From assembly GCA_947503785.1 (NCBI GenBank), contig CANNFB010000006.1:62001-126000 (forward strand): 64,000 nt of DNA, given 5' to 3'. Source of the DNA: an uncultured Campylobacterales bacterium (lineage in GTDB: Bacteria > Campylobacterota > Campylobacteria > Campylobacterales > Arcobacteraceae). Shown here piece by piece: positions 1 through 13,210 of this stretch (positions within the stretch are counted from its first letter, which is position 1; every line of letters begins with the position of its first letter). The translations under genes and the position numbers were made by a program. The notes beneath the pieces are model-generated. The model made no database searches. It was not told where the DNA came from and worked only from the letters and a program-made list of their open reading frames with translations.

Positions 1-844
1 CTTCATCTAATATTGGATTAGTATTATTAATGTGAATTAGTATCTTTCTTGGTTTTTCTAATTGGTCAAATATTTTAATTAAGCCATTTTCACCACTTAA
101 TGGTAGGTGTCCCATATCAGTTCCTAACTTATTTGAAAACTCACCTTTTATCATTTCATCATTTGTCCAAAGAGTTCCTTCAATTAATAGAACATCTGCT
201 TTCTTCATTTCTTCAAAAACATGGTCCTCTAAAACTCCAAGACCTGGTAGATAAAACAATCTTTTTCCTGTATTTTTATTTACTACAGTAATACCAATAT
301 TATCACCACTTCTAGGTTTATCTCTATAAGAAGAGTATGGTGGAGCATTTGAGATTAAGGCATGTGCATAAAACTCATAATTTGGCATTACTGGAATTTC
401 AAACTTTGTAGTACTATTGGGAATAATTTCATTCCACTTTGTACCTCCACCATCCCAGTGTTGTAACATCTTAAATAAAGGGAAAGAAGTATTCAGTTCT
501 TCATTTACTTCTTTAGTACAATAAACTTCATGAGGACAGCCTTCTCTTAACATTAAAAGTCCAGTTGTATGGTCTATTTGTCCATCATTAAAAACTATTG
601 CTTTAATTTTAGTTTCTCTTTTTTTTGTTGGATGTAAAAAAGGAGAATTATGTATTTGCTCTAAAATATCAGGGGATGTGTTAAATAACACCCAGTTTTC
701 ACCATCTTCACTAATAGTAATCGAAGATTGTGTTCTTCTTTTAATTGTTTTTTTACCTTCTCTATAACCTCTACAGTTATCACAGTTACAATTAAATTGA
801 GGAAGACCTCCTCCAGCACCTGAGCCTAAAACTTGAATTTTCAA
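1..844 (-). CDS. pqqB: PqqB, PQQ biosynthesis MBL-fold protein (3' end off window)
   Basis: PqqB is a metallo-beta-lactamase-fold protein of PQQ biosynthesis, generally held to act as an oxygenase on the PqqA-derived precursor. The translated N-terminus starts LKIQVLGSGAGGGLPQFNCN, the typical PqqB beginning (VLGS.AGGG.PQ.NC.C), followed by a second Cys pair (CDNC). The ORF track misses it because it starts with TTG (842-844), preceded by AAAGGA, and runs off the left edge. About 281 codons are present, close to the usual 300-310, so only the C-terminus is missing. It is downstream of pqqA on the same strand. pqqC, D and E are probably beyond the window edge. Identification is firm; the exact start is slightly less so. 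Confidence 0.93.
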   Translation of the reverse strand, partial: MKIQVLGSGAGGGLPQFNCNCDNCRGYREGKKTIKRRTQSSITISEDGENWVLFNTSPDILEQIHNSPFLHPTKKRETKIKAIVFNDGQIDHTTGLLMLREGCPHEVYCTKEVNEELNTSFPLFKMLQHWDGGGTKWNEIIPNSTTKFEIPVMPNYEFYAHALISNAPPYSSYRDKPRSGDNIGITVVNKNTGKRLFYLPGLGVLEDHVFEEMKKADVLLIEGTLWTNDEMIKGEFSNKLGTDMGHLPLSGENGLIKIFDQLEKPRKILIHINNTNPILDE

Positions 845-950: not shown

Positions 951-1025
951 TTATACTGTACAAATGTACATTGTAACTTCAAATCCAAATCTATTATCTA
1001 CGTAAGTTGGTTTTTTCCATTCCAT
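951..1025 (-). CDS. pqqA: PqqA, PQQ precursor peptide (24 aa)
   Basis: This 24-residue peptide, too short for the ORF track, is the ribosomally made precursor of PQQ. Its C-terminal part FEVTMYICTV carries the invariant Glu and Tyr (E16 and Y20, spacing E-x3-Y) that are cross-linked by PqqE and become the PQQ skeleton. The start ATG has a strong ribosome site (AAAGGAG) at normal distance. It lies 39 bp downstream of the PQQ dehydrogenase and upstream of pqqB, all on the minus strand, so precursor and apoenzyme are probably co-transcribed. Length and motif match PqqA family members (about 23-29 aa). Confidence 0.95.
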   Translation of the reverse strand: MEWKKPTYVDNRFGFEVTMYICTV

Positions 1026-1064: not shown

Positions 1065-2831
1065 TTATTTGTGCAACTTAAACACGTGAACTGATCCACC
1101 TTGATTTAAATACTTAACAGTTTTTGCAACTTCACCACCCCATAAAGGAACAGCTCCACCCCAACCTGCAACGATTGCAATGTATTGTTCACCATCTTGT
1201 TTCCAAGTAATTGGAGAACCTACGATTCCAGTACCAACATTAAATTTCCAAACTATTTCACCAGTTTGATCATCAAATGCCATAAATTTACCTTCAGGAG
1301 TACCTGTGAATACAAGTCCACCACCAGTAGTTAAAACTCCACCCCATAATGGTGCATTGTTTTTATAAGTCCATTTAATCTCACCAGTTTTAGGATCAAC
1401 AGCTTTTAAAGCTCCGATATGATCTTCAAATGTTGGTTTAATAGTAAATCCAGCACCTAAGTAAGCAGCACCTTTTTTATATGCAACAGGCTTATTCCAA
1501 ATATCCATTCCCCACTCATTTGCAGGAACATAAAATAATCCTGTATCTTGTGAAAATGCCATTGGATTCCAGTTTTTACCACCTAAGAAAGATGGAGTTG
1601 CATAGACAGTTTTACCTTGTTTTTCACCAACTGGTTTTCCAGGTCTATTATCTTCATTTACAATTGGACGACCGTCTTTATCCATACCACTTGCCCAAGT
1701 AACATTTTCTACAAAAGGTACTGATCTAATATACTTTCCAGTAACTCTATCTAATACATAGAAGAACCCATTTTTATCGGCAGTAGCTCCAGCTTTTACC
1801 ATTTTTCCATTTTTGTCTTTATATTCAAAAGCTACAAATTCAGAAATACCATCATAATCCCAACCATCATTTGGAGTTGTTTGGAAATGCCAAACAATTT
1901 TTCCAGTATCTGGATTAATTGCTACTCTTGAAGCTGAATAAAGGTTATCACCTGGTCTATCATGTGAATTCCAAGGAGAAGGATTTCCTGTTGGAACATA
2001 AATTAAATCTGCATCGGGATCATAAGTAACACCATTCCAAGGAGCAGCACCACCATGTTTCCATAAATCACCCGGCCATGTAGCGTTTGTTTGCCCTGTA
2101 ATTCCATTATCTTTACCGTTTAAAGTACCCATATGACCTTCAACCATTGGTCTAGTCCATACTAGTTCACCTGTTAATGGGTTTCTTGCATCTAATTGTC
2201 CTACAACACCAAACTCACCACCAGAATTTCCAGTAATTAATAAACCTTTAACAATTAAAGGAGCTGCTGTATAAGAATAACCTTCTTTATAATTAGCAAT
2301 TTTCTTTTTCCATTTTACTTTTCCAGTTTTTCTATCAAGAGCAACTAGTTTTGCATCTAAAGTACCAAAAATAACAAGATTTTGGTATAATGCAGGACCT
2401 CTGTTTATTACATCACAACAAGGTAAAATAGCACCTGGAAGTCTGGCATCGTACTGCCATATCTCATCTCCAGTTGCTATATCAATAGCATACATTCTAG
2501 AATAAGAAGCTGTTACATACATAACTCCATCTTTAACTAAAGGTTGAGCTTCTTGCCCTCTTTGTTTTTCACCACCAAATGAAAAATTCCATACTGGAAC
2601 TAAATCTTTAATAGTCTTTTTATTAATCTGATCTAAAGATGAATATCTTTGACCTTTTTGACCTAAACCATACGTTACAACATCTTCAACAGTTTTAGCA
2701 TCATTAGCAATATCCGCATCAGTTACAGGCGCAAAACCAGCACTTGCAGATAACATTGTTACAGCACTTGCACTTAATAGTGTAGACAGTGTAACTTTAG
2801 CTACATTATTCAGAAATTTATTCTTTCCCAT
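1065..2831 (-). CDS. PQQ-dependent alcohol dehydrogenase, DxD (lanthanide) type
   Basis: Periplasmic quinoprotein alcohol dehydrogenase of the methanol/ethanol family (eight-bladed propeller, 588 aa). I start it at ATG 2831, residue 29 of the longer ORF, because AAGGAGAGAGG precedes it and a signal peptide follows (hydrophobic stretch ending near ASAGFA). Visible features are the vicinal disulfide CC at 138-139, metal-ligand Glu206 in GGEFG, Asn283 in TGNPSPWN, and catalytic Asp325 in WDYDG. Asp327, two residues later, is the extra ligand that marks lanthanide-dependent enzymes (XoxF, ExaF, PedH); calcium MxaF has Ala there. There is no C-terminal heme domain, so electrons must go to a separate cytochrome, probably the PedF-like one in this window. 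The natural alcohol cannot be read from sequence. Confidence 0.92.
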
Positions 2832-2949: not shown

Positions 2950-3732
2950 TTATCTTTTAAGTACATTCTTAGTGTTATAGCCGATAAAAGCGAGGCTTAG
3001 TGTAATTATAAAAATAGCAATTATAATTAAGAAAGAATTTAACTCAAACTTTAAATAAAGTGTAAATCTTACAAATTCTACTATGTAAGTAAAGGGATTT
3101 AGTACACAAACTTGATATAAAAACAAGCTTGAATCTTTTATTTTCCATAAGGGATATAAAGCAGAAGATAAAAAGAACATTGGAAAGATTACAAAGTTCA
3201 TAACTGAAGCAAAATTTTCAAGTTGTTTTATAACAGAAGAAATAAATAGAGCAAAGGCATTTAAAATAATAGAGGTAAATAAAATTGCAGGAATAGCAAG
3301 TAAATATCCTAAAAAAGACATTTCAATTCCATAAAAATATGCAATGATTAAAAATACAATAGCTTGAATTGTAGAAACAATTGCAGTTGCGAACATTTTA
3401 CAAAAAAGTAAATAAGATCTTGAAATATTTGAAGTTAAAAGAATTTTCATAGATCCCATTTCTCTATCAAAAATCATAGCAAGAGAACTTTGCATACCAT
3501 TAAAAAGTAAAATCATTCCAATAAGACCTGGAACTATATATGTTTCATAAGTAATATATGTTTCATATGGAGGAATTATTGCAAGTCCTAAAGCTGATTT
3601 AAAACCAACTGAAAAAATAAATAGCCATAAAAGTGGTCGAACGAGTGCAGAAAAAAATCTACTTTTTTGTTTTATAAAACGAAGTAGCTCTTTATAAATG
3701 ATTCCAAGTGCACAATAATATAATTTTCTCAT
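2950..3732 (-). CDS. ABC-2 type permease of PQQ-associated transporter (PedC-like)
   Basis: Integral membrane subunit of an ABC-2-family transporter, 260 aa with about six hydrophobic segments, starting MRKLYYCALGIIYKELLRFI and ending in a basic tail. It follows its ATPase by 17 bp in the same operon and completes a set (exported protein, propeller, ATPase, permease) typical of PQQ-dehydrogenase loci such as Pseudomonas ped. Homologous systems (PedA1A2BC, Lut) are linked to lanthanide uptake or use. Direction of transport is not evident, since ABC-2 proteins are often exporters. The family assignment is firm and the substrate is inference. Confidence 0.85.
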   Translation of the reverse strand: MRKLYYCALGIIYKELLRFIKQKSRFFSALVRPLLWLFIFSVGFKSALGLAIIPPYETYITYETYIVPGLIGMILLFNGMQSSLAMIFDREMGSMKILLTSNISRSYLLFCKMFATAIVSTIQAIVFLIIAYFYGIEMSFLGYLLAIPAILFTSIILNAFALFISSVIKQLENFASVMNFVIFPMFFLSSALYPLWKIKDSSLFLYQVCVLNPFTYIVEFVRFTLYLKFELNSFLIIIAIFIITLSLAFIGYNTKNVLKR

Positions 3733-3749: not shown

Positions 3750-4469
3750 TTACTTTGTTAGGTGTTCAAAAACTTCTGTTAATGAATCTTTATTATTTTC
3801 TTTTATAACATCTTTTACAATTCCACTTGCAATTATTTCACCTTGTTTAATAATTGCAACATCATCTTCATTATCAACCTCATCAAAAAGATGAGTAATC
3901 CATAAAACAGAAATTCCTCTTTTTTTTACAATTTCTTTTACATAAGAAATAATTGAATACCTACTTTTTATATCAAGTCCTGAAGTTGCTTCATCAAGTA
4001 AAATTAATTTTGGGTTATCTATTAAAGCTCTTAATATTTCAACACGTCTACGATGTCCTCCATTTAAAGATCTTACTTTTACATCTAGTTTCTCTTCTAA
4101 TTCTAAAGCTTTTAACTCTTCTTGTATTGAAACCATTGTTTCTTTAAATGAGATTCCTTTTAAAGAACCATAAAAGATTAGATTTTGTTTTACTGTTAAA
4201 TCTAAATCTAGTGTTGGTTCTTGAAAAACAATACCAATGCTATCTAAAGCTTTTTTATAGTTTGAAATAGGAAATGAATTTATAAGTATTTCACCCTCTT
4301 GTAGTTTAAGTAATCTTGTAATTAAAGCAAAAAGAGTCGATTTCCCAGCACCATTTAGTCCTAAAAGGACTAAAAATGATGCCTGTTTTATATTTAAATT
4401 AATATTTTTTAAAATTAAATCTTTATCATATTTATAAGAAACATTTTTTATTTCAAGCTGATTTTTCAT
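3750..4469 (-). CDS. ABC transporter ATPase, PQQ-associated
   Basis: Cytoplasmic ATP-binding subunit, 239 aa. The Walker A is GLNGAGKST, the Q-loop lies in VFQEPTLD, the signature motif appears as LNGGHRRRVE (the usual SGGQ is altered to NGGH), Walker B is LILLDEATSGLD and the H-loop is WITHL. The NGGH variant and its position beside a propeller protein and an ABC-2 permease match the PQQ-dependent alcohol dehydrogenase-associated ABC ATPase family. It begins 5 bp after the propeller gene and is 17 bp from the permease, so the four genes from 5871 down to 2950 form one operon. Confidence 0.9.
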   Translation of the reverse strand: MKNQLEIKNVSYKYDKDLILKNINLNIKQASFLVLLGLNGAGKSTLFALITRLLKLQEGEILINSFPISNYKKALDSIGIVFQEPTLDLDLTVKQNLIFYGSLKGISFKETMVSIQEELKALELEEKLDVKVRSLNGGHRRRVEILRALIDNPKLILLDEATSGLDIKSRYSIISYVKEIVKKRGISVLWITHLFDEVDNEDDVAIIKQGEIIASGIVKDVIKENNKDSLTEVFEHLTK

Positions 4470-4474
4470 TTACC

Positions 4475-5434
4475 CTACTTTGTTGGTTTTACGGCAATTC
4501 CCCATGGGAATCTTCCTACTTTTATTGTTTTTTCAACTTTTAAAGAATCTACATCAATAATTGATACATCTCCACTAACACCGTTTGTAGTATACAATTT
4601 AGTTTCATTATTTGCTAAATCTAATTGCCAAACTCTTTTCCCAACTAATAAATACTTAATAACTTCATAAGTTTTAGCGTCAACTACTGCCACATGATTT
4701 GCAGGCCCAAGGGCTACAAAAGCATATTTTCCATCAGCTGTAAGTTTAATACCCACTGGCTGAATTTTATCTTTATATACACCTGGAATTTTAAAAGAGA
4801 TTTTTGAAATAGGTTCTTTCGTTTTTGAATCAAGAACAATTACCGTTCCACCAATCTCACTTGATGCCCAAACCTTATCTCCAGTTTTTGAAAACTCAAT
4901 ATGTCTAGGTCTTTCATCTACTAAAGTATTATGAATAATCTTTTTAGTTTTAGTATCAATCCAATGTAAGAAGTTTGATGTTTCAGATGAATTAATAGCA
5001 ACTGTTCCATCTGGACTTACAGCCATACCTTCAGGTTCAATACCAACCTCTATCTGTGTTATAACCGATTTATTAACAGTATCTACTACAGTTACAATAC
5101 CATCATCTTCATTTGATATATAAAGCTCTTTGCCATTTGGGTGCAAAGAAAACTGTTCTGGATCTTCTCCTGAAGGAAGATTATATAAGATTTTCCCAGT
5201 TTTTACATCCATAGCTTGTACAGTATCATCATCACTAGCACAAATATATAATTTTGAATAATCACTAGTAAGAGTAATCCCTCTAGGTCTTTGACCAACT
5301 TCATAAGTTTTTATAACTTTTTGCGTATTTGAATCAATAACAGAAATAGTATTATCTTTTTCATTTGAAACAAATATTGTATCTGCAAATATTACTGAAC
5401 TTAAAATAGTAAGTAATCCAATTTTCTTTAACAT
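4475..5434 (-). CDS. PQQ-associated periplasmic beta-propeller protein
   Basis: Exported 319-residue protein made of YVTN-type repeats (for example VSNEKDNTISVIDSNTQKV and VVDTVNKSVITQIEVGIEPE), each about 40 residues, giving a seven-bladed propeller. The first 17 residues form a signal peptide ending VIFADT. It matches the PQQ-dependent catabolism-associated beta-propeller family found beside this ABC pair. Its job is not established; a periplasmic partner for the ABC-2 transporter or for dehydrogenase activation is plausible. It lies 5 bp before the ATPase gene and 17 bp after the small exported protein, in one operon. Confidence 0.85.
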   Translation of the reverse strand: MLKKIGLLTILSSVIFADTIFVSNEKDNTISVIDSNTQKVIKTYEVGQRPRGITLTSDYSKLYICASDDDTVQAMDVKTGKILYNLPSGEDPEQFSLHPNGKELYISNEDDGIVTVVDTVNKSVITQIEVGIEPEGMAVSPDGTVAINSSETSNFLHWIDTKTKKIIHNTLVDERPRHIEFSKTGDKVWASSEIGGTVIVLDSKTKEPISKISFKIPGVYKDKIQPVGIKLTADGKYAFVALGPANHVAVVDAKTYEVIKYLLVGKRVWQLDLANNETKLYTTNGVSGDVSIIDVDSLKVEKTIKVGRFPWGIAVKPTK

Positions 5435-5451
5435 TTTATATATCCTTATAT

Positions 5452-5871
5452 TTATTCAACGATAAAAGTTGCTCTTTCTCTATCACTTTTAGCTGTAGGA
5501 AGACCTAAAGTGTAAGTACCTGGCTTAATAGGTATAAATGTAAGCTCTATAGAACCTTCATCATCAAATTCAAAACTATCTATTCCTAATGGTCTTACTT
5601 CAATATCATTAATAGATACTTGATTTACCCAGATATTTCTAAAAAAAGCAGCTCCAACAATAGGAACTTCTCTAGAACCATCACTTTTTAAAATAAGTTT
5701 GTAATATTTCCCAGCTTCTAATTTATAAGGTTCAGTAGCTAATGGCTCACCTGCACTAATATTAATAGGGGATAATGTTGTTCTTGAATGTAGTAAACCT
5801 TTTAAGTTCTTTGCAAAGGCAAATTCTCCTGTTAAAAATACCATCATTACAAATATTGCAATTTTTTTCAT
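5452..5871 (-). CDS. small exported beta-sandwich protein of the PQQ island
   Basis: 139-residue protein with a clear signal peptide (MKKIAIFVMMVFLTGEFAFA). The mature part is rich in predicted beta strands and ends in IKPGTYTLGLPTAKSDRERA, a layout that recalls cupredoxin-like domains, but the Cys and His copper ligands are missing. It is first in the operon with the propeller, ATPase and permease, and its promoter carries the island operator. I do not recognise a named family. A periplasmic accessory role in PQQ enzyme function or metal delivery is inference from position only. Confidence 0.75.
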   Translation of the reverse strand: MKKIAIFVMMVFLTGEFAFAKNLKGLLHSRTTLSPINISAGEPLATEPYKLEAGKYYKLILKSDGSREVPIVGAAFFRNIWVNQVSINDIEVRPLGIDSFEFDDEGSIELTFIPIKPGTYTLGLPTAKSDRERATFIVE

Positions 5872-5999: not shown

Positions 6000-7148
6000 A
6001 TGAAAGTATTACTATTTTTAGCACTTTTATTTTCATTTATAAAAGCAGATATTTTAGAAACAAATATCTTATACTTAGAACAAAAGATACAAAGACCTCC
6101 TGTATTGTCGAATGTTATCAAAACACCAGAAGACTTAGGAATACAAGGAGCCAAAATTGCTGTAAAAGATTCAAATAAGACAGCAAGATTTTTAAATCAA
6201 AAATATAATTTAATAGAAAAAATTTCATCTGATAAAAAAGAATTACTAAGTTCACTAGAAAAATTTGTAAATGAAAAAAACTCTTTTGTTTTATTAAAAG
6301 TTGAAGATGATTTTTTAAAAGAACTTATTAAAAATCCTTTATTTAAAAAAGCAATATTTTTTAATATTGCAAATAAAAACTCTAGTTTCAGACAAAATGT
6401 ATGTCAAAACAATCTTTTACATACTATTTCTTCAAATGCGATGTTATATGACGGATTAGTTCAATTTTTAATAAAAAGAGATTTTAAAGATATCTTTTTA
6501 ATCCACGGAACAAAAGAAAAAGATTTACAAATCCAAAAAGATATTAAAAGAGCAGTAAAAAAATTTAATGCAAAAATAGTAAAAGAAAAACAATGGGTTT
6601 ATGATGCAGATATTAGAAGAAAAGCTACTGCTGAATTACCTGCATTTACTCAAGCTAGTGATTATGATGTAATTGTAACTGCTGATAACTACGGAGACTT
6701 CGGAGAATTTATTTATTTTAACTCTTGGCTTCCTCGACCAGTAGCTGGGACGCAAGGGCTAAGACCTAAAACTTGGCATAAAGTAATTGAACAATGGGGT
6801 GCTGCTCAAATGCAAAAAAGGTTTGAAAAGTTTGCTTCAAGATGGATGGAAGATGAAGATTTTGCAGCTTGGGTTGCTATTAGAACTATAGTTAAAAGTG
6901 TAACAAAAACAAAAAACAATGATATGAAAACATCTCTAGATTTTATTTATTCAAAAGATTTTGAATTAGGTGCTTATAAAGGAAGGAAATTATCATATAG
7001 AGATTTTAATGGACAAATAAGAATGCCAGTAGCCCTAGTTCAACCAAGAGCTTTAGTTTCAACTTCTCCACAAGATGGTTTTTTACATCCAACAAATGAC
7101 TTAGATACTTTGGGAATTGCTTCATTTCAAGTAGAGTGTAAAAAATAA
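6000..7148 (+). CDS. periplasmic binding protein, PQQ-dehydrogenase ABC system
   Basis: 382-residue exported protein of the branched-chain-amino-acid-receptor fold, matching the family of ABC substrate-binding proteins associated with PQQ alcohol dehydrogenases. I place the start at ATG 6000 (residue 20 of the ORF) because AGAAGGAAAAC precedes it and MKVLLFLALLFSFIKAD is a good signal peptide. A conserved central part includes ASDYDVIVTADNYGDFGEFI and WLPRPVAGTQGLRP. It is divergent from the exported protein-ABC operon and shares its operator. Ligand unknown; related Ped/Lut systems suggest a link to lanthanide supply. Confidence 0.85.
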   Translation: MKVLLFLALLFSFIKADILETNILYLEQKIQRPPVLSNVIKTPEDLGIQGAKIAVKDSNKTARFLNQKYNLIEKISSDKKELLSSLEKFVNEKNSFVLLKVEDDFLKELIKNPLFKKAIFFNIANKNSSFRQNVCQNNLLHTISSNAMLYDGLVQFLIKRDFKDIFLIHGTKEKDLQIQKDIKRAVKKFNAKIVKEKQWVYDADIRRKATAELPAFTQASDYDVIVTADNYGDFGEFIYFNSWLPRPVAGTQGLRPKTWHKVIEQWGAAQMQKRFEKFASRWMEDEDFAAWVAIRTIVKSVTKTKNNDMKTSLDFIYSKDFELGAYKGRKLSYRDFNGQIRMPVALVQPRALVSTSPQDGFLHPTNDLDTLGIASFQVECKK

Positions 7149-7149
7149 A

Positions 7150-7620
7150 ATGAAAGTTTTCATTCTTCTTTTTACTTTTATAATCTTTTCATTAAATTTA
7201 CAAGCTGAGTATAAAAAAACAATATATTCTAATTACGTAATTTATGAAACAAAAGATAAGTATAAAGAAGTTATATTTACTTTAATTGATGAAATAAGTC
7301 AAAATGGATTTATACAATCATATAGAGCAAATATTGGAAATTCTGTAAAAAATATCTCATCTTTTTATAAAAAAGAACCTATTTTCTCAAATGCTGAAAA
7401 AATAGGTTTTTGCAGACAAACTCTAACTTTTGAAATGATGGAAGAAAACCCAAATAATTTAATGTTTTGTCCTTTATCAATAGCAATATACGAACTAAAA
7501 AATGAAAAAAATATTGTAAAAATAGTATATAGATTTGCAAAAATTTCAAGTTTAGAGAGTAAGGTTTTAAATAAAGTTAATCAAGAAATTTTACAGCTTA
7601 TTGAAAATAGTTTAGAGTAA
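7150..7620 (+). CDS. exported DUF302-like protein
   Basis: 156-residue protein with signal peptide (MKVFILLFTFIIFSLNLQAE). The mature region resembles DUF302: an N-terminal strand-helix (NYVIYETKDKYKEVIFTLID), then the block FCPLSIAIYELKNEKNIVKI near residues 117-136. It starts one base after the binding-protein stop codon, so the two are co-translated. DUF302 function is unknown; such proteins recur in quinoprotein and sulfur-oxidation loci. Family assignment is moderate, based on the overall pattern. Confidence 0.65.
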   Translation: MKVFILLFTFIIFSLNLQAEYKKTIYSNYVIYETKDKYKEVIFTLIDEISQNGFIQSYRANIGNSVKNISSFYKKEPIFSNAEKIGFCRQTLTFEMMEENPNNLMFCPLSIAIYELKNEKNIVKIVYRFAKISSLESKVLNKVNQEILQLIENSLE

Positions 7621-7625
7621 ACTGT

Positions 7626-8348
7626 TTAACTTAAAATTCCAGATAAAATACTAGGATATTTTTGTAAAATTTTTTCTTTAATTTTTTCTATTTCTAAGTT
7701 TTCTAGATTTGATGAAAAGTCATTTTTATTTTCATAATCCAAAACTATTTTCATAGGTTTTGAATCTAAAAAGATTATTCTTTGAGATAAGGAAACTGCC
7801 TCTTTTAAATCATGAGTTATAAAAACAACAGTTGGTTTGAATTTTTTATAAAACTCCACAAAATCACTTCTTAAAGCCTGTGCAGTTGGATAGTCTAAGG
7901 AAATGAATGGTTCATCAAGTAATAAAATATCAGGTTTATTGATAAAAGCTCGGACAAGTGCTGCTCTTCTTTGCATTCCACCTGATAACTCTTTTGCATA
8001 AGAATCCATATAGTTCTCTAAACCAACCTCATACAAAGATTGTATTATCCATTCTTCATCTTTTGTATTAGAAACAAGCATAATATTTTCAAAAATTGTA
8101 AGCCATGGAATTAGTCTTGAATCTTGAAACATTACTCCAATATTACTATTAATTATTTTTTTATTATCAAAAGATATAGAACCTAAATAATCTGTATCTG
8201 TATTTGATATTATATTTAATAATGTTGTTTTACCACAACCAGAAGGTCCTATAATTGATATAAATTCACTATTTTTTATTTCAAGTTTTAAATTCTCTAT
8301 AATTTTATTATCTTGATATTTCTTTGAATTTATATTTATATCTAACAT
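7626..8348 (-). CDS. ABC importer ATPase, SsuB/TauB-like
   Basis: 240-residue ATPase of the nitrate/sulfonate/taurine importer family. Walker A is GPSGCGKTT, the signature is LSGGMQRRAALVRAF, Walker B is ILLLDEPFISLD and the H-loop is FITHDL. It starts one base after the permease stop, within an operon reading binding protein, permease, ATPase. All three lie between PQQ-associated genes and are driven by a promoter with the island operator, which ties this importer to quinoprotein metabolism although its substrate cannot be read. Confidence 0.9.
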   Translation of the reverse strand: MLDININSKKYQDNKIIENLKLEIKNSEFISIIGPSGCGKTTLLNIISNTDTDYLGSISFDNKKIINSNIGVMFQDSRLIPWLTIFENIMLVSNTKDEEWIIQSLYEVGLENYMDSYAKELSGGMQRRAALVRAFINKPDILLLDEPFISLDYPTAQALRSDFVEFYKKFKPTVVFITHDLKEAVSLSQRIIFLDSKPMKIVLDYENKNDFSSNLENLEIEKIKEKILQKYPSILSGILS

Positions 8349-8349
8349 C

Positions 8350-9084
8350 TTATCTCCACTGATTTGTTTTTTTCTCTAAGGGTCTTAAAATATATGTTTC
8401 AATTAACAAAATCACAATAATAAATGCCATTGAGTAAGCCATAATACTTGTAATATCAAAAAACTGAAAAAACATAGATAATTGAAAGCCAATACCTGAA
8501 CTTCTACCCAATAATTCCACAACTAAAACAATCTTCCAAATTAAAGAAAGTCCTGTTCTTGCACTAGCCATTATATAAGGATAAATTTGAGGTAAATATA
8601 TTTTATTTAAAGTTTCTATTTTTGATACTTTATATATTTGTGCAATTTGCATATATTTTTGCTCAACAGTTCGAGCACCTTCTCGTACTGTTACAATTAC
8701 AGTTGGAACTTTGTTTAAAACTACTGCTAAAAGTGCCGCTGTATCTGTTAATCCAAACCAAATATAACATAGTATTATAGTTACAAGGGCAGGAATATTT
8801 AGACCTATTATAAGCAAGGTATCTAAAGCAGTATCAATTTTCTTATATGAGCCCATTAAAATACCAAATAAGACTCCAATAGCCATTGCAATAAAGAAAG
8901 TAATAGCAACTCGCAGTAAAGTAATACCCAAATGATAAAGAAGCTCTCCATCTTTTAAATGGAAAGCTAGACTTTTAAAAACATCAATAACACTTGGAAA
9001 AGTATCAGTATTTATTAATAAAGCAAAAGTCTGCCATAAAATAAATATAATTAGTATAGAAATAAATCTACTTTTTTCTGGCAT
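8350..9084 (-). CDS. ABC importer permease, SsuC/TauC-like
   Basis: Membrane subunit with about six hydrophobic segments and the EAA loop typical of importer permeases (region around YKVSKIETLNKIYLPQIYPY). The track start at 9135 would overlap the binding-protein gene by 44 bp. I prefer ATG 9084 (MPEKSRFISI), eight bases after the upstream stop, giving 244 aa and a normal first membrane helix. Neither start has a strong ribosome site, so translational coupling is likely. Confidence 0.85.
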   Translation of the reverse strand: MPEKSRFISILIIFILWQTFALLINTDTFPSVIDVFKSLAFHLKDGELLYHLGITLLRVAITFFIAMAIGVLFGILMGSYKKIDTALDTLLIIGLNIPALVTIILCYIWFGLTDTAALLAVVLNKVPTVIVTVREGARTVEQKYMQIAQIYKVSKIETLNKIYLPQIYPYIMASARTGLSLIWKIVLVVELLGRSSGIGFQLSMFFQFFDITSIMAYSMAFIIVILLIETYILRPLEKKTNQWR

Positions 9085-9091
9085 TAAAGTT

Positions 9092-10060
9092 TTACCACTT
9101 AATATCTGGATTAAAATCCCAGAATGTTTTAGCATTTAAAGAAGTACTCTTTCCTACTAGTTTTTCTCCACCCTCTTTATATAAAATTTCAAATACTTTT
9201 TTAGAGTTTTCAATATGTGCTGAAGAAAAGTTCTTAACAATGCCATTTATATAACCATTTTTTAAAGCTGTAAACATCTCTTCATTTTTTACTTTCATTA
9301 AAGGCTTAATTCTATTCCATTCATCTTCGGAAGTACTTAACAGTTTTTTTGTTTCATAAGATGCTTGTAAAAAACTATTAATTACTTTTTTATTTTTATT
9401 TGCAAAATCACGATTAAAAGTCCATCCAATTAGTGGAATATCACTATTTATTTTAAACTCTTCTAAAATTTCTTTAACTCCTAATAATCTTTTTAATCCT
9501 TTAGATTCCAACTTTGCATTAAAATGCCAAAAGTTTATTGAGGCACTTAAAGACTTATCTAACATCTTTTTATATAAAATCGGAGGTGCTGCAAATACAG
9601 GGTTTACCATATCTTTTAAATCTTTATTATATTTATTTTTGGAATAAGCTCTAAATAACAACCAAGTCTTATCCACACTACCACCTGCAATTCCTAATCT
9701 TTTTTTATCTAAATCTAAAAGAGATTTGATTTTGTTATCATTTACATATAAAGCACCAACAGCTTTTGAATAAGGATAAAAAGAAATATTTTTCCCACTA
9801 GCTCTTTGTCTATTTACCCAAACCCAATCATTCACAATAATATCAACACTATTTGATTGTAAGGCAATTGCAACTGCATTTTTTGAGGCTAATTTTACAA
9901 CTTCTACATCAATACCATGTTTTTTATCAAGCTTATTATGTTTTAAAACCTCTAATTCCCAATTTACTGTTCCAAAAGCCAATACACCAATTTTTATCTT
10001 TTCATTTGCATATAAATTTAGTAAAGTTACAAACATAAGTATAAATACTTTTAATTTCAC
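9092..10060 (-). CDS. periplasmic binding protein, NMT1/SsuA-like
   Basis: 322-residue substrate-binding protein of the NMT1/SsuA fold (IKIGVLAFGTVNWELEVLKH at the mature start, then LGIAGGSVDKTWLLFRAYSK). The true start is GTG at 10060, residue 26 of the track ORF, because AAGGAG precedes it at proper spacing and the signal peptide (KLKVFILMFVTLLNLYANE) follows at once. It heads an operon with the permease and ATPase. Its promoter has the island operator and is divergent from pedF. The ligand is unknown; candidates range from a sulfonate to a cofactor-related compound. Confidence 0.85.
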   Translation of the reverse strand: MKLKVFILMFVTLLNLYANEKIKIGVLAFGTVNWELEVLKHNKLDKKHGIDVEVVKLASKNAVAIALQSNSVDIIVNDWVWVNRQRASGKNISFYPYSKAVGALYVNDNKIKSLLDLDKKRLGIAGGSVDKTWLLFRAYSKNKYNKDLKDMVNPVFAAPPILYKKMLDKSLSASINFWHFNAKLESKGLKRLLGVKEILEEFKINSDIPLIGWTFNRDFANKNKKVINSFLQASYETKKLLSTSEDEWNRIKPLMKVKNEEMFTALKNGYINGIVKNFSSAHIENSKKVFEILYKEGGEKLVGKSTSLNAKTFWDFNPDIKW

Positions 10061-10084
10061 AATAACTCCTTGAATATTTTCACA

Positions 10085-10117
10085 ATTGTAATAGAAAATT
10101 GTAGCTTGACTATAGCA
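10085..10117 (-). promoter_or_regulatory. promoter and operator for the SsuABC-like operon
   Basis: Minus strand TGCTATAGTCAAGCTACA, nine bases, then TACAAT as -10 (10090-10085). It faces another copy at 10137-10154 that drives pedF, the same inverted layout as at 5915-5961. Confidence 0.72.
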
Positions 10118-10136
10118 AGATAAATTTCTACACAAG

Positions 10137-10198: not shown

Positions 10199-10615
10199 AT
10201 GAAAAGTTTAAAGAAAATTGCATTTGTTGTATTAGCAACATCTACACTAGCATTTGGACATGGAGATGTAACTCCTCAAGCTGTAGAAACTAAAGGTTTA
10301 GCAAAAATTTCAGAGGATGTGATTATTAATCCTTTTAGAGATAATGAAGTTGCAATTGAAATTGGTAAAGGCGCTTACAACACAAACTGTGCAAGATGTC
10401 ATGGATTAGGTGCAGTATCTGGTGGTGTTGCTCCTGACTTAAGAGCTCTTGATGCAGCAGATGATGACATTGACGAATATTTTATTACAAAAGTTAAAGA
10501 AGGTGCTGTAAGAAATGGAAATGTTTATATGCCTCCATTTGGTGAAGTATTATCAGCTGAAGCAATTTGGGCGATTAGATCATGGTTAGAAACATTACCA
10601 ACAGACGATTTATAG
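10199..10615 (+). CDS. pedF: cytochrome c-550 PedF-like, electron acceptor of PQQ dehydrogenase
   Basis: 138-residue periplasmic c-type cytochrome. It has a signal peptide ending TLAFG, then HGDVTPQAVE, the characteristic start of mature PedF proteins, one heme site CARCH near residue 62, and Met in VYMPPFGEVLS as likely sixth ligand. The C-terminal AIWAIRSWLET is also typical. In Pseudomonas this cytochrome takes electrons from quinoprotein alcohol dehydrogenases. The dehydrogenase here lacks its own heme domain, so this is its most likely partner. It is first in a four-gene operon. Confidence 0.88.
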   Translation: MKSLKKIAFVVLATSTLAFGHGDVTPQAVETKGLAKISEDVIINPFRDNEVAIEIGKGAYNTNCARCHGLGAVSGGVAPDLRALDAADDDIDEYFITKVKEGAVRNGNVYMPPFGEVLSAEAIWAIRSWLETLPTDDL

Positions 10616-10623
10616 GATAAATT

Positions 10624-11484
10624 ATGTTATATAAAATTACATTTCTGATCTTTATACTAATATCAAACCTAAATGCTAGGTCTATTGAAGAAATAAAAGA
10701 ATCTGGTGATATTATCATTGCAATATATGAGGATTTCCCTCCTTATTCATATATTGAAGATGGTGTGGCTAAAGGAATTGATATTGATTTAGGAAAAGAA
10801 ATAGCAAAATCAATGGGTGTAAAACCTACTTGGTATTGGACAGGTTCGGATGAAACATTAGATGATGATTTAAGAAATGTAATTTGGAAAGGGCATTTGA
10901 TCCACAAAACAAGAGCGGATGTAATGCTTCGTATACCTTATGATTATGAATTTATTAGAGAAAAAGATAAAAGTACAGGTGAACTAAACAATGAACTTGT
11001 AGTTATGAAAGCTCCATATCATGCTGAAAGTTGGGTAATTGCTACAAATAAAGAAAAAATTCCCGAGATAAATACTCTAGGGATTTTTATGTACAATAAA
11101 ATCGGTGTAGAATTAGACACTCTACCTGATGCACATTTTACTTCATCTTTTATGGGGAAATTAAGATCTAATGTAATTCATTACCCTTCGATTCTTACAG
11201 CAATTGAGGATTTAAAAAGTGGAAAAATTCAAGCAGTTGCAGGATTAAAATCACAATTAGAATATGCTTTAAACTATAATGAAAATAAAGACAAATACTT
11301 TATGACTAAAAAAATAGATTATGTAAAGTCTAAATGGGATTTAGGAATTGCTGTAAGAACTGACTATAGACCTTTAGGTTATGAAATTGAAGGCTATATT
11401 GAAGAATATATTCAAAAAGGTATATTAAAAGAAATATTTAAAAGATACAATGTTAATTATGAACTTCCACTTGCTTTACAATAA
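10624..11484 (+). CDS. quinoprotein dehydrogenase-associated binding protein (MxaJ/XoxJ-like)
   Basis: 286-residue exported protein with the family 3 solute-binding fold (ARSIEEIKESGDIIIAIYED after the signal peptide; GIDIDLGKEIAKSMGVKPTW). It matches the quinoprotein dehydrogenase-associated binding proteins to which MxaJ and XoxJ belong. XoxJ is thought to help activate lanthanide-dependent dehydrogenases. The motif WYWTGSDETLDDDLRN is typical of this group. It starts 8 bp after pedF. A transport role is unlikely since no permease is next to it. Confidence 0.85.
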   Translation: MLYKITFLIFILISNLNARSIEEIKESGDIIIAIYEDFPPYSYIEDGVAKGIDIDLGKEIAKSMGVKPTWYWTGSDETLDDDLRNVIWKGHLIHKTRADVMLRIPYDYEFIREKDKSTGELNNELVVMKAPYHAESWVIATNKEKIPEINTLGIFMYNKIGVELDTLPDAHFTSSFMGKLRSNVIHYPSILTAIEDLKSGKIQAVAGLKSQLEYALNYNENKDKYFMTKKIDYVKSKWDLGIAVRTDYRPLGYEIEGYIEEYIQKGILKEIFKRYNVNYELPLALQ

Positions 11485-11515: not shown

Positions 11516-12274
11516 ATGAAAAAAAGTATTAAAAAAATAGTAAAAATATTCTTTTTACTATTAATAATCAACCAAGTAAGCTTCGCAAAAGACCCTCTTA
11601 ACTCCTCCGTTTGGACTGAAACAATAAAACAAATGATTGGAGATGACAAATACATCTTTGATGATGAAAACATCAAAATCGATGTTCCTAAATTTGCTGA
11701 CAATCCACTTCAAGTTCCTATATTTATTGATGCTACTAAAATAGAAAAAGCAAAAAGACTTTTAGTTTTTGCAGATATAAATGCTATTGTTAAAGTTGCA
11801 GATTACGACCTTGGACATATGAAGCCTATTTTATCTTTAAATATTAAAGTAGCACAAGGAACACCACTTCGGGCTGCTGTTTTAGATGAAAATGGTTTAT
11901 GGCATGTTGGAAGTGCCCATATAAATAGTTTTGGAGGAGGATGTTCAGTAGCTTCTGAAGCTAGTAAAATGGAAAGCTTTGAAGATTTAATAGGAAAAAC
12001 AAAAAGTAAAGTTTGGAAAAAAGAGAATACCTATAGAATTAAATGGTCTATTTTCCATCCAATGGAAACTGGACTTTTTGTAGGAAACCCATCATTTTAT
12101 ATATCAAAAGTTGATATAAGAATTGATTCACAAACTATTGGAAAAATCAGTTTGTACGGTTCAGTTAGTGAAAATCCAAGAATTACACTTGAAACAAATG
12201 TTGGTAATGGAGCTTATAAACTTTTTATAAGTGACACTGATGGCAATGAATTTGAATTAAAAACAAAAATGTAG
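11516..12274 (+). CDS. quinoprotein-associated fused SoxYZ-like carrier
   Basis: 252-residue exported protein in which a SoxY-like N-terminal half (ends in INSFGGGCSVAS, with the carrier Cys near residue 141) is fused to a SoxZ-like C-terminal half (IFHPMETGLFVG... FYISKVDIR). Fused SoxYZ-like carriers of this type are known beside PQQ dehydrogenases and are thought to carry an intermediate or electrons on the Cys. Here the Cys motif is internal instead of at the C-terminus as in SoxY. It lies between the XoxJ-like gene and its partner hydrolase. The chemistry is unknown. Confidence 0.85.
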   Translation: MKKSIKKIVKIFFLLLIINQVSFAKDPLNSSVWTETIKQMIGDDKYIFDDENIKIDVPKFADNPLQVPIFIDATKIEKAKRLLVFADINAIVKVADYDLGHMKPILSLNIKVAQGTPLRAAVLDENGLWHVGSAHINSFGGGCSVASEASKMESFEDLIGKTKSKVWKKENTYRIKWSIFHPMETGLFVGNPSFYISKVDIRIDSQTIGKISLYGSVSENPRITLETNVGNGAYKLFISDTDGNEFELKTKM

Positions 12275-12283
12275 GAGTATAAG

Positions 12284-13210
12284 ATGAAATTTAAACAACT
12301 ATTATTTTTGAGTTTGTTTTCAACAGTTTTATTTGCAAGTGATTATAACTATAATTTAAAACCTGAGAAAATTGCTGAAAATACTTATGTATTTATTGGT
12401 AAAAAAGAATTCTTTAATATACGAAATGGTGGAGATATTTCAAATACAGCTTTTATAGATACCAAGGAGGGTGTAATAGTTATAGATACAGGTTCTTCTG
12501 CAAAGTATGGAGAACAAATGATTAAAGCAATTAGAACAATTACCTCAAAGCCTATTATAACTGTAATAAATACACATCATCATCCTGATCATTTTTTAGG
12601 TAACTCTGCTTTTAAAGACTCCCAAATTTTAGCTACAAAATATACAAAAGATGATATTGCTAATAATGGAGATTTATACATAAGCAATCTTATGAATCTA
12701 ACTTATAAATGGATGGAAGGTACTGAAGTTAAAGCTCCAACAAAAGAGTTAGATGAGCTAAAAAACAAATACATCAAATTAGGGAAACATAAACTAAAAG
12801 TAATTTATCTAGATGGTCATACAAATTCGGATATCGCTTTATATGATGAATATACAAAAACTTTATTTGCATCTGACTTGATTTTTTATAATAGAATTGC
12901 AGCAACTCCTCATGCTAATATAAAAAATTGGATAAGTGCTTTAGAAGATTTAAGACAAGTAGATTTTAAAGTTTTAGTACCAGGACATGGTCCAATATCT
13001 ACACAAAAAGAGCCCTTTGATCAAGTAAAAAGATATCTTATTTATTTAGATGAAACTTTAAAAAATGCAGCAGAACAAGGGCTTAGTGTTTTTGAAATTT
13101 TACAACTTCCTAAACCAGTAGAATTTGTAAATCTAGCTATGATTGAAGATGAGTTTGAAAGATCAGTAATAAATCTTTATCCTCAATATGAAAATGCTTT
13201 AATGGAATAA
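12284..13210 (+). CDS. quinoprotein relay zinc metallo-hydrolase (SoxH-related)
   Basis: 308-residue exported metallo-beta-lactamase-fold protein. The zinc motif is NTHHHPDHFLGN (HxHxDH form), with further ligands in LDGHTNSDIALY, ASDLIF and VPGHGP. The signal peptide ends LFAS. SoxH-related hydrolases of this class are coupled to the SoxYZ-like carrier in quinoprotein loci. It starts 9 bp after that carrier and is the last gene of the pedF operon. A terminator overlaps its stop codon. Confidence 0.87.
   Translation: MKFKQLLFLSLFSTVLFASDYNYNLKPEKIAENTYVFIGKKEFFNIRNGGDISNTAFIDTKEGVIVIDTGSSAKYGEQMIKAIRTITSKPIITVINTHHHPDHFLGNSAFKDSQILATKYTKDDIANNGDLYISNLMNLTYKWMEGTEVKAPTKELDELKNKYIKLGKHKLKVIYLDGHTNSDIALYDEYTKTLFASDLIFYNRIAATPHANIKNWISALEDLRQVDFKVLVPGHGPISTQKEPFDQVKRYLIYLDETLKNAAEQGLSVFEILQLPKPVEFVNLAMIEDEFERSVINLYPQYENALME

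Follow-up and report, generated by a model that had tools for sequence, protein, structure and literature searches.

In Pseudomonas putida, a Ser/Asp difference at a single position sets the calcium-dependent PQQ alcohol dehydrogenase PedE apart from the lanthanide-dependent PedH, and PedH is inactive with calcium under the published conditions (PMC5487730). The importer PedA1A2BC is required for growth of P. putida at low lanthanum, in an organism without a close homologue of the known lanthanide receptors (PMC6839425). The Methylorubrum counterparts of PedA1A2BC are likewise required for lanthanide-dependent methanol growth (PMC7391723). A 2025 ocean survey has described some metal heterogeneity within the alcohol dehydrogenase type (2b) that corresponds to PedH and ExaF, and found lanthanide-type quinoproteins in ocean genomes from 14 out of 33 phyla (PMC11996626).

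The locus analysed here lies within a stretch of 64,000 nucleotides (the window; G000:C6:62001-126000) of a 2.76 Mb genome. The evidence described below indicates that the locus very probably encodes all parts of a lanthanide-dependent alcohol oxidation module of the PedH type. Its features are as follows.

1..844, minus strand: pqqB, 3' end beyond the window (TIGR02108)
951..1025, minus strand: pqqA, PQQ precursor peptide MEWKKPTYVDNRFGFEVTMYICTV with an E...Y pair (from sequence, a Shine-Dalgarno and the same peptide beside the ADH in related loci)
1065..2831, minus strand: PedH-type PQQ alcohol dehydrogenase (ADH), predicted Ln3+-dependent, ligands E206, N283, D325 and D327 (TIGR03075, alignment, tree, model)
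2950..3732, minus strand: PedC/LutF-like ABC permease (TIGR03861, 353 bits, cut-off 241)
3750..4469, minus strand: PedB/LutE-like ABC ATPase (TIGR03864, 288 bits, just under the cut-off of 302)
4475..5434, minus strand: PedA2, PQQ-associated beta-propeller protein (TIGR03866, 494 bits, cut-off 287)
5452..5871, minus strand: small exported protein, predicted cupredoxin-like fold, conserved in lut/ped clusters
6000..7148, plus strand: PedA1/LutA-like periplasmic binding protein (TIGR03863, 421 bits, cut-off 413.6)
7150..7620, plus strand: exported DUF302 protein (PF03625, 26 bits, cut-off 23), also found by calcium-type loci
7626..8348, minus strand: second ABC transporter, ATPase of the nitrate/sulfonate/taurine type, conserved in lanthanide-type loci
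8350..9135, minus strand: second ABC transporter, permease, conserved in lanthanide-type loci
9092..10075, minus strand: second ABC transporter, NMT1/SsuA-like binding protein (PF09084; start codon unsure)
10199..10615, plus strand: PedF-type cytochrome c-550, probable electron acceptor (TIGR04494, 176.6 bits, cut-off 122)
10624..11484, plus strand: PedG/XoxJ-like periplasmic protein (PF00497), a family-3 solute-binding protein beside PedF
11516..12274, plus strand: quinoprotein dehydrogenase-associated fused SoxYZ-like carrier (TIGR04557, 155 bits, cut-off 140)
12284..13210, plus strand: quinoprotein relay system zinc metallohydrolase 1, SoxH-like (TIGR04558, 383 bits, cut-off 300)
Beyond the window, in L003: pqqC, 9170-9907 (TIGR02111); pqqD, 8929-9198 (TIGR03859); pqqE, 7833-8936 (TIGR02109)

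The dehydrogenase and its metal site

The ADH reading frame specifies 588 amino acids from an ATG at 2831, with a strong Shine-Dalgarno (AAAGGAGAGAGGAATG) upstream of the start, and its product carries an export signal. A score of 770 bits against TIGR03075 (cut-off 480) places it in the PQQ methanol/ethanol dehydrogenase family. The original prediction had read a lanthanide-type metal site from a WDYDG motif (D325 and D327) together with E206 and N283. All four residues are where it located them, and an alignment of 119 PQQ-ADHs places them at E199, N281, D323 and D325 of PedH; the pairing of D327 with PedH D325 puts it in the lanthanide-ligand column and rules out a shift of register. At this diagnostic column PedH and XoxF have D, MxaF has A, and ExaA and every PedE-type row have S, in agreement with the earlier statement that calcium enzymes carry a small residue there. 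The adjacent cysteines of the disulfide ring (C138-C139) are conserved. The alignment also recovers the full ligand set in Rhodobacterales rows, although a regular-expression motif search missed them.

Overall similarity points in the same direction. The ADH is 65.6% identical to lanthanide-dependent PedH and 56.8% identical to the calcium enzyme ExaA, and a ranking of solved structures by sequence gives PedH 859 bits and ExaA 689, with XoxF, MxaF and others below half. An AlphaFold model built from 42 sequences (pLDDT 83, pTM 0.87) finds its best structural match in PedH (6zcw; TM 0.91/0.95, 65% identity), and ExaA is matched with a TM of 0.90. In the tree, the ADH groups with PedH and with Methylobacterium enzymes of the ExaF type, apart from the calcium ExaA/PedE clade (support 100/100). 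Ligand set and tree position together assign it to the PedH/ExaF group, or ADH type 2b, a label taken from PMC11996626 and applied here with the Methylobacterium rows standing in for ExaF; Asp327 in place of Ser and a position outside the clade separate it from the ExaA/PedE calcium type. Bit score and tree position also exclude membership of the XoxF/MxaF methanol dehydrogenases, and with it methylotrophy.

No other PQQ-ADH is encoded in the window genome, which thus has no calcium paralogue. The closest named relative of the enzyme, at 97% identity, is from Poseidonibacter lekithochrous A1R12; the host, a marine bacterium, is Poseidonibacter or a close relative within the Arcobacteraceae, as the suggestion of a Campylobacterota-like genome had anticipated.

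Cofactor synthesis, uptake and partner genes

Downstream of the ADH lies a PQQ biosynthesis operon in which pqqA, B, C, D and E are all present and intact; TIGR02108, TIGR02111, TIGR03859 and TIGR02109 were all matched above their cut-offs. This operon formed no part of the original prediction and is added here. Three copies of pqqA occur in one related genome (G324; L143 and L144), one by each ADH and another further downstream. On the far side of the pqq genes (L003) are an ExaC-type aldehyde dehydrogenase, about 9 kb from the ADH, a DUF779 gene, and a histidine kinase that carries fused FIST N and C domains (L003:2285-4860, equivalent to G000:C6:54285-56860) together with an OmpR-type regulator. 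The FIST-kinase and OmpR-type regulator lie next to pqq and the ADH in calcium-type as well as lanthanide-type loci. NosP belongs to the FIST proteins. The Pseudomonas ped cluster encodes NosP and the kinase PedS1 as separate neighbouring genes (PMC12997753).

Upstream of the ADH, all four components of a PedA1A2BC/Lut importer were found, three scoring above their family cut-offs and PedB just below, which bears out the proposal that the neighbouring ABC set is related to these systems. PedC shares 55% identity with its counterparts in the Methylorubrum thiocyanatum lut cluster and in Pseudomonas, and the lut/ped copies of PedB and PedA2 are 42-47% and 57-64% identical, respectively. The small exported protein matched no Pfam or NCBIfam family. 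Copies of it (also L159:9902-10363 and L160:13126-13476) are kept in lut/ped clusters of Alphaproteobacteria, Gammaproteobacteria and Campylobacterota; the protein is conserved in these clusters and has been little described. In M. thiocyanatum the order is PedA1, PedA2, small protein, PedB, PedC; in Pseudomonas all five genes lie together. Neither a TonB-type receptor nor lanmodulin was seen in the surroundings of the locus.

The partner genes on the far side of the importer include the PedF-like cytochrome and the MxaJ/XoxJ-like protein that the original prediction had listed as neighbours, and both identifications stand. The PedG-like protein matched none of the NCBIfam MoxJ models; its name therefore comes from context and from homology to copies beside PedF, where a family-3 binding protein adjoins the cytochrome in quinoprotein ADH loci. 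A PedS2/PedR2 pair was not recognised. Between PedA1 and PedF sits a second ABC importer spanning about 7626-10135. Of 72 pseudomonadotal loci, 14 have two or three of its components beside a lanthanide-type ADH. Five of the 26 matches to its binding protein (in G453, G452, G292, G431 and G122) span a stop codon, possibly because the query overruns the true end or start of the gene.

Distribution, origin and alternative readings

A PQQ-ADH is encoded in 31 of 104 Arcobacteraceae genomes. The DxD, or lanthanide, type accounts for 27 of these, 26 seen directly and one (G411) counted from 70% identity since a contig end cuts the gene before the motif. A separate DxS, or calcium, type similar to ExaA/PedE occurs in seven of the 104 (for example L138:5813-7720, L136:10954-12846, L014:1489-3381 and L013:1462-3375), alone in G373, G406, G415 and G430 and together with DxD in G452, G454 and G324; in the two-enzyme genomes a lanthanide switch is possible. 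In the tree, all 27 Campylobacterota rows of the PedH-type clade, the window included, keep D in the diagnostic column, and S stands there without exception in the seven Arcobacteraceae rows of the other clade.

The accessory genes divide along the same line. PqqE and PedF are each present in 30 of the 31 PQQ-ADH genomes and in none of the remaining 73. Counted by genome, units that are phylogenetically non-independent, PedA1 is found in 23 of 27 DxD genomes (the other four are fragmented drafts) versus none of the four DxS-only genomes (Fisher p 0.002); for the PedG-like protein, and again for the binding protein of the second ABC transporter, the figures are 26 of 27 versus none of four (Fisher p 0.00016 for each); all three are absent from the 73 genomes without a PQQ-ADH. 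PedC occurs in two of the four DxS-only genomes, so PedB and PedC are linked less strictly to metal type. The DxS-only genomes belong to three genera that also hold DxD members (g2, g4 and g10), and the contrast is therefore drawn within at least three genera. Among the loci read, PedF adjoins the ADH whichever its type, and SoxYZ and SoxH do so in most loci of either type; PQQ synthesis and PedF are retained in the four calcium-only genomes, which lack PedA1, PedG and the second ABC transporter. Because the second importer tracks the lanthanide type and not the calcium type in this family, it may, as a tentative and somewhat doubtful reading, be a component of lanthanide-dependent alcohol metabolism that has not been described before, for instance importing a lanthanide-chelator complex or serving another need of the lanthanide-type enzyme.

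These patterns bear on what metal the enzyme uses. A calcium-dependent ethanol dehydrogenase of the ExaA/PedE type, its second Asp incidental, would share family and fold with the ADH, as the 57% identity and TM of 0.90 to ExaA attest, and could draw on the metal heterogeneity reported in type 2b (PMC11996626). Such an enzyme is nonetheless very unlikely to be the one encoded here, given a fully supported position outside the ExaA/PedE clade, the strict partition of D and S between the two Campylobacterota clades, the association of PedA1, the PedG-like protein and the second ABC transporter with D and not S, and the failure of PedH itself to work with calcium (PMC5487730). The lack of a calcium paralogue in the window species implies either lanthanide dependence or a tolerant enzyme, and if the ADH accepted both Ca2+ and Ln3+ in vivo that lack would cost little. 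This promiscuity is highly improbable, however, in an enzyme whose ligand set and close surroundings are those of PedH, inactive with Ca2+ under published conditions (PMC5487730), and in a genome that retains the full lanthanide uptake set. The original lanthanide-type reading is thus upheld by the ligand column, the PedH/ExaF clade and uptake genes that track enzyme type, with metal dependence as its prediction.

The origin of the gene was addressed by phylogeny. In the first tree the outgroup was disturbed by the long branch of one distant row (L105), so a second tree was built with the calcium clade as outgroup. In this careful tree the Campylobacterota DxD rows come out as a single clade (100/100). 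Its sister is the gammaproteobacterial PedH group (100/97), and it lies nested in pseudomonadotal diversity; the ExaA/PedE group contains the DxS rows as another clade (100/100 in the careful tree, and with a wider set in the first). A single clade for all pseudomonadotal PedH-type rows is rejected marginally, with a p-AU of 0.036 in a test framed after the tree was inspected; transfer is therefore graded as likely. The simplest reading is one horizontal acquisition from a gammaproteobacterial source, its position and direction drawn from one gene tree. The Campylobacterota DxD clade also encloses G308, a genome from a different family of the order (f7), and this suggests a later transfer within the order. 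Across a phylum-wide sample, 10 of 397 genomes carry the enzyme family, all of them in the Arcobacteraceae and f7. The G+C content of the locus equals that of the rest of the window (28.9%), and this host-like composition indicates that the acquisition is not recent.

Gammaproteobacterial contamination of a draft genome might also place such a contig here, and the nearest relatives outside the phylum are indeed marine Gammaproteobacteria. The base composition just noted, the separate and fully supported clade of the Campylobacterota copies, and the occurrence of the same cluster in family members assembled as a single contig (G342, G310, G122, G324, G453 and G401) refute this explanation, which has practically no probability left. 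A label does look wrong elsewhere: a 1.8 Mb MAG assigned to Klebsiella pneumoniae (L055, CAMDGF010000006.1) carries a Rhodocyclaceae-like lanthanide-type ADH locus.

Proposed pathway and comparison with described systems

With lanthanide dependence as the preferred reading, a pathway can be proposed. The ADH would be exported to the periplasm and there take up the PQQ that the neighbouring pqqA-E operon produces. One Ln3+ ion would be held by E206, N283, D325 and D327, the positions given by alignment and the identity of the metal predicted. By analogy with PedH, the enzyme is expected to turn ethanol and other short alcohols into aldehydes; PedH itself favours ethanol over methanol by a factor of more than ten. 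Electrons would pass to the PedF-type cytochrome c-550, judging from its gene family, and PedA1A2BC would import Ln3+ at low supply, as its tested Pseudomonas and Methylorubrum orthologues suggest. The PedG/XoxJ-like protein probably assists enzyme loading, and the ExaC-like aldehyde dehydrogenase probably completes the oxidation in the cytoplasm. As the window genome has no calcium counterpart, the alcohol pathway should require lanthanides in this species, and P. lekithochrous A1R12 and two others may switch between ADH types as P. putida does. At the level of sequence, the enzyme class, ligand set, cofactor operon, partner genes and absence of a calcium paralogue are established.

Best known among the Campylobacterota are pathogens and marine bacteria that oxidise sulfur and hydrogen. 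Predicted lanthanide-dependent alcohol oxidation, with its uptake genes and cofactor synthesis, can now be placed in this phylum from gene content. The Arcobacteraceae also amount to a natural experiment, in which close relatives carry the lanthanide type only, the calcium type only, or both; the contrast separates general PQQ-enzyme genes from metal-associated ones and singles out the second transporter and the PedG-like protein as parts linked to metal type. The open-access literature searched yielded no report of lanthanides or PQQ for Arcobacter, Poseidonibacter, Campylobacterota or Epsilonproteobacteria. The earlier description of the case as notable for its phylum is fair, but the novelty is modest given the 14 of 33 phyla already recorded (PMC11996626). 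The main parts are all of known kinds and the phylum is new, within the open-access literature searched; the second ABC transporter is the part that could itself be new.

The nearest described system is PedH of Pseudomonas putida/alloputida KT2440 (PDB 6ZCV, 6ZCW), which shares the four ligands, the adjacent cysteines and the clade with the ADH, and whose locus likewise contains PedA1A2BC, PedF, PedG, SoxYZ, SoxH and an ExaC/PedI-like aldehyde dehydrogenase; the parts list of the Pseudomonas ped cluster equals that of the window locus (PMC12997753). The two differ in phylum and in the pqq operon, which here directly adjoins the ADH. Unlike KT2440, the window genome has no PedE-type partner, although some relatives do, and instead of a recognisable PedS2/PedR2 pair it has the fused FIST-histidine kinase and OmpR-type regulator nearby, as well as the extra ABC transporter. 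The ExaF-type enzymes of Methylobacterium and Methylorubrum are lanthanide-type ethanol dehydrogenases of the same clade with adjoining PedF- and PedG-like genes, but in Methylorubrum the ADH and lut genes lie apart, and the published lut set includes the TonB receptor LutH (PMC7391723), of which the window locus has no counterpart nearby. More distant are the methanol dehydrogenases XoxF and MxaF, which share the fold, and in XoxF also the second Asp, but fall far outside the ADH clade with less than half the bit score; the locus bears no sign of methylotrophy. The calcium enzymes ExaA and PedE (PDB 1FLG) resemble the ADH in fold, PQQ site, adjacent cysteines and cytochrome c-550 partner, and differ from it in forming a separate clade and in carrying Ser where the ADH has Asp327.
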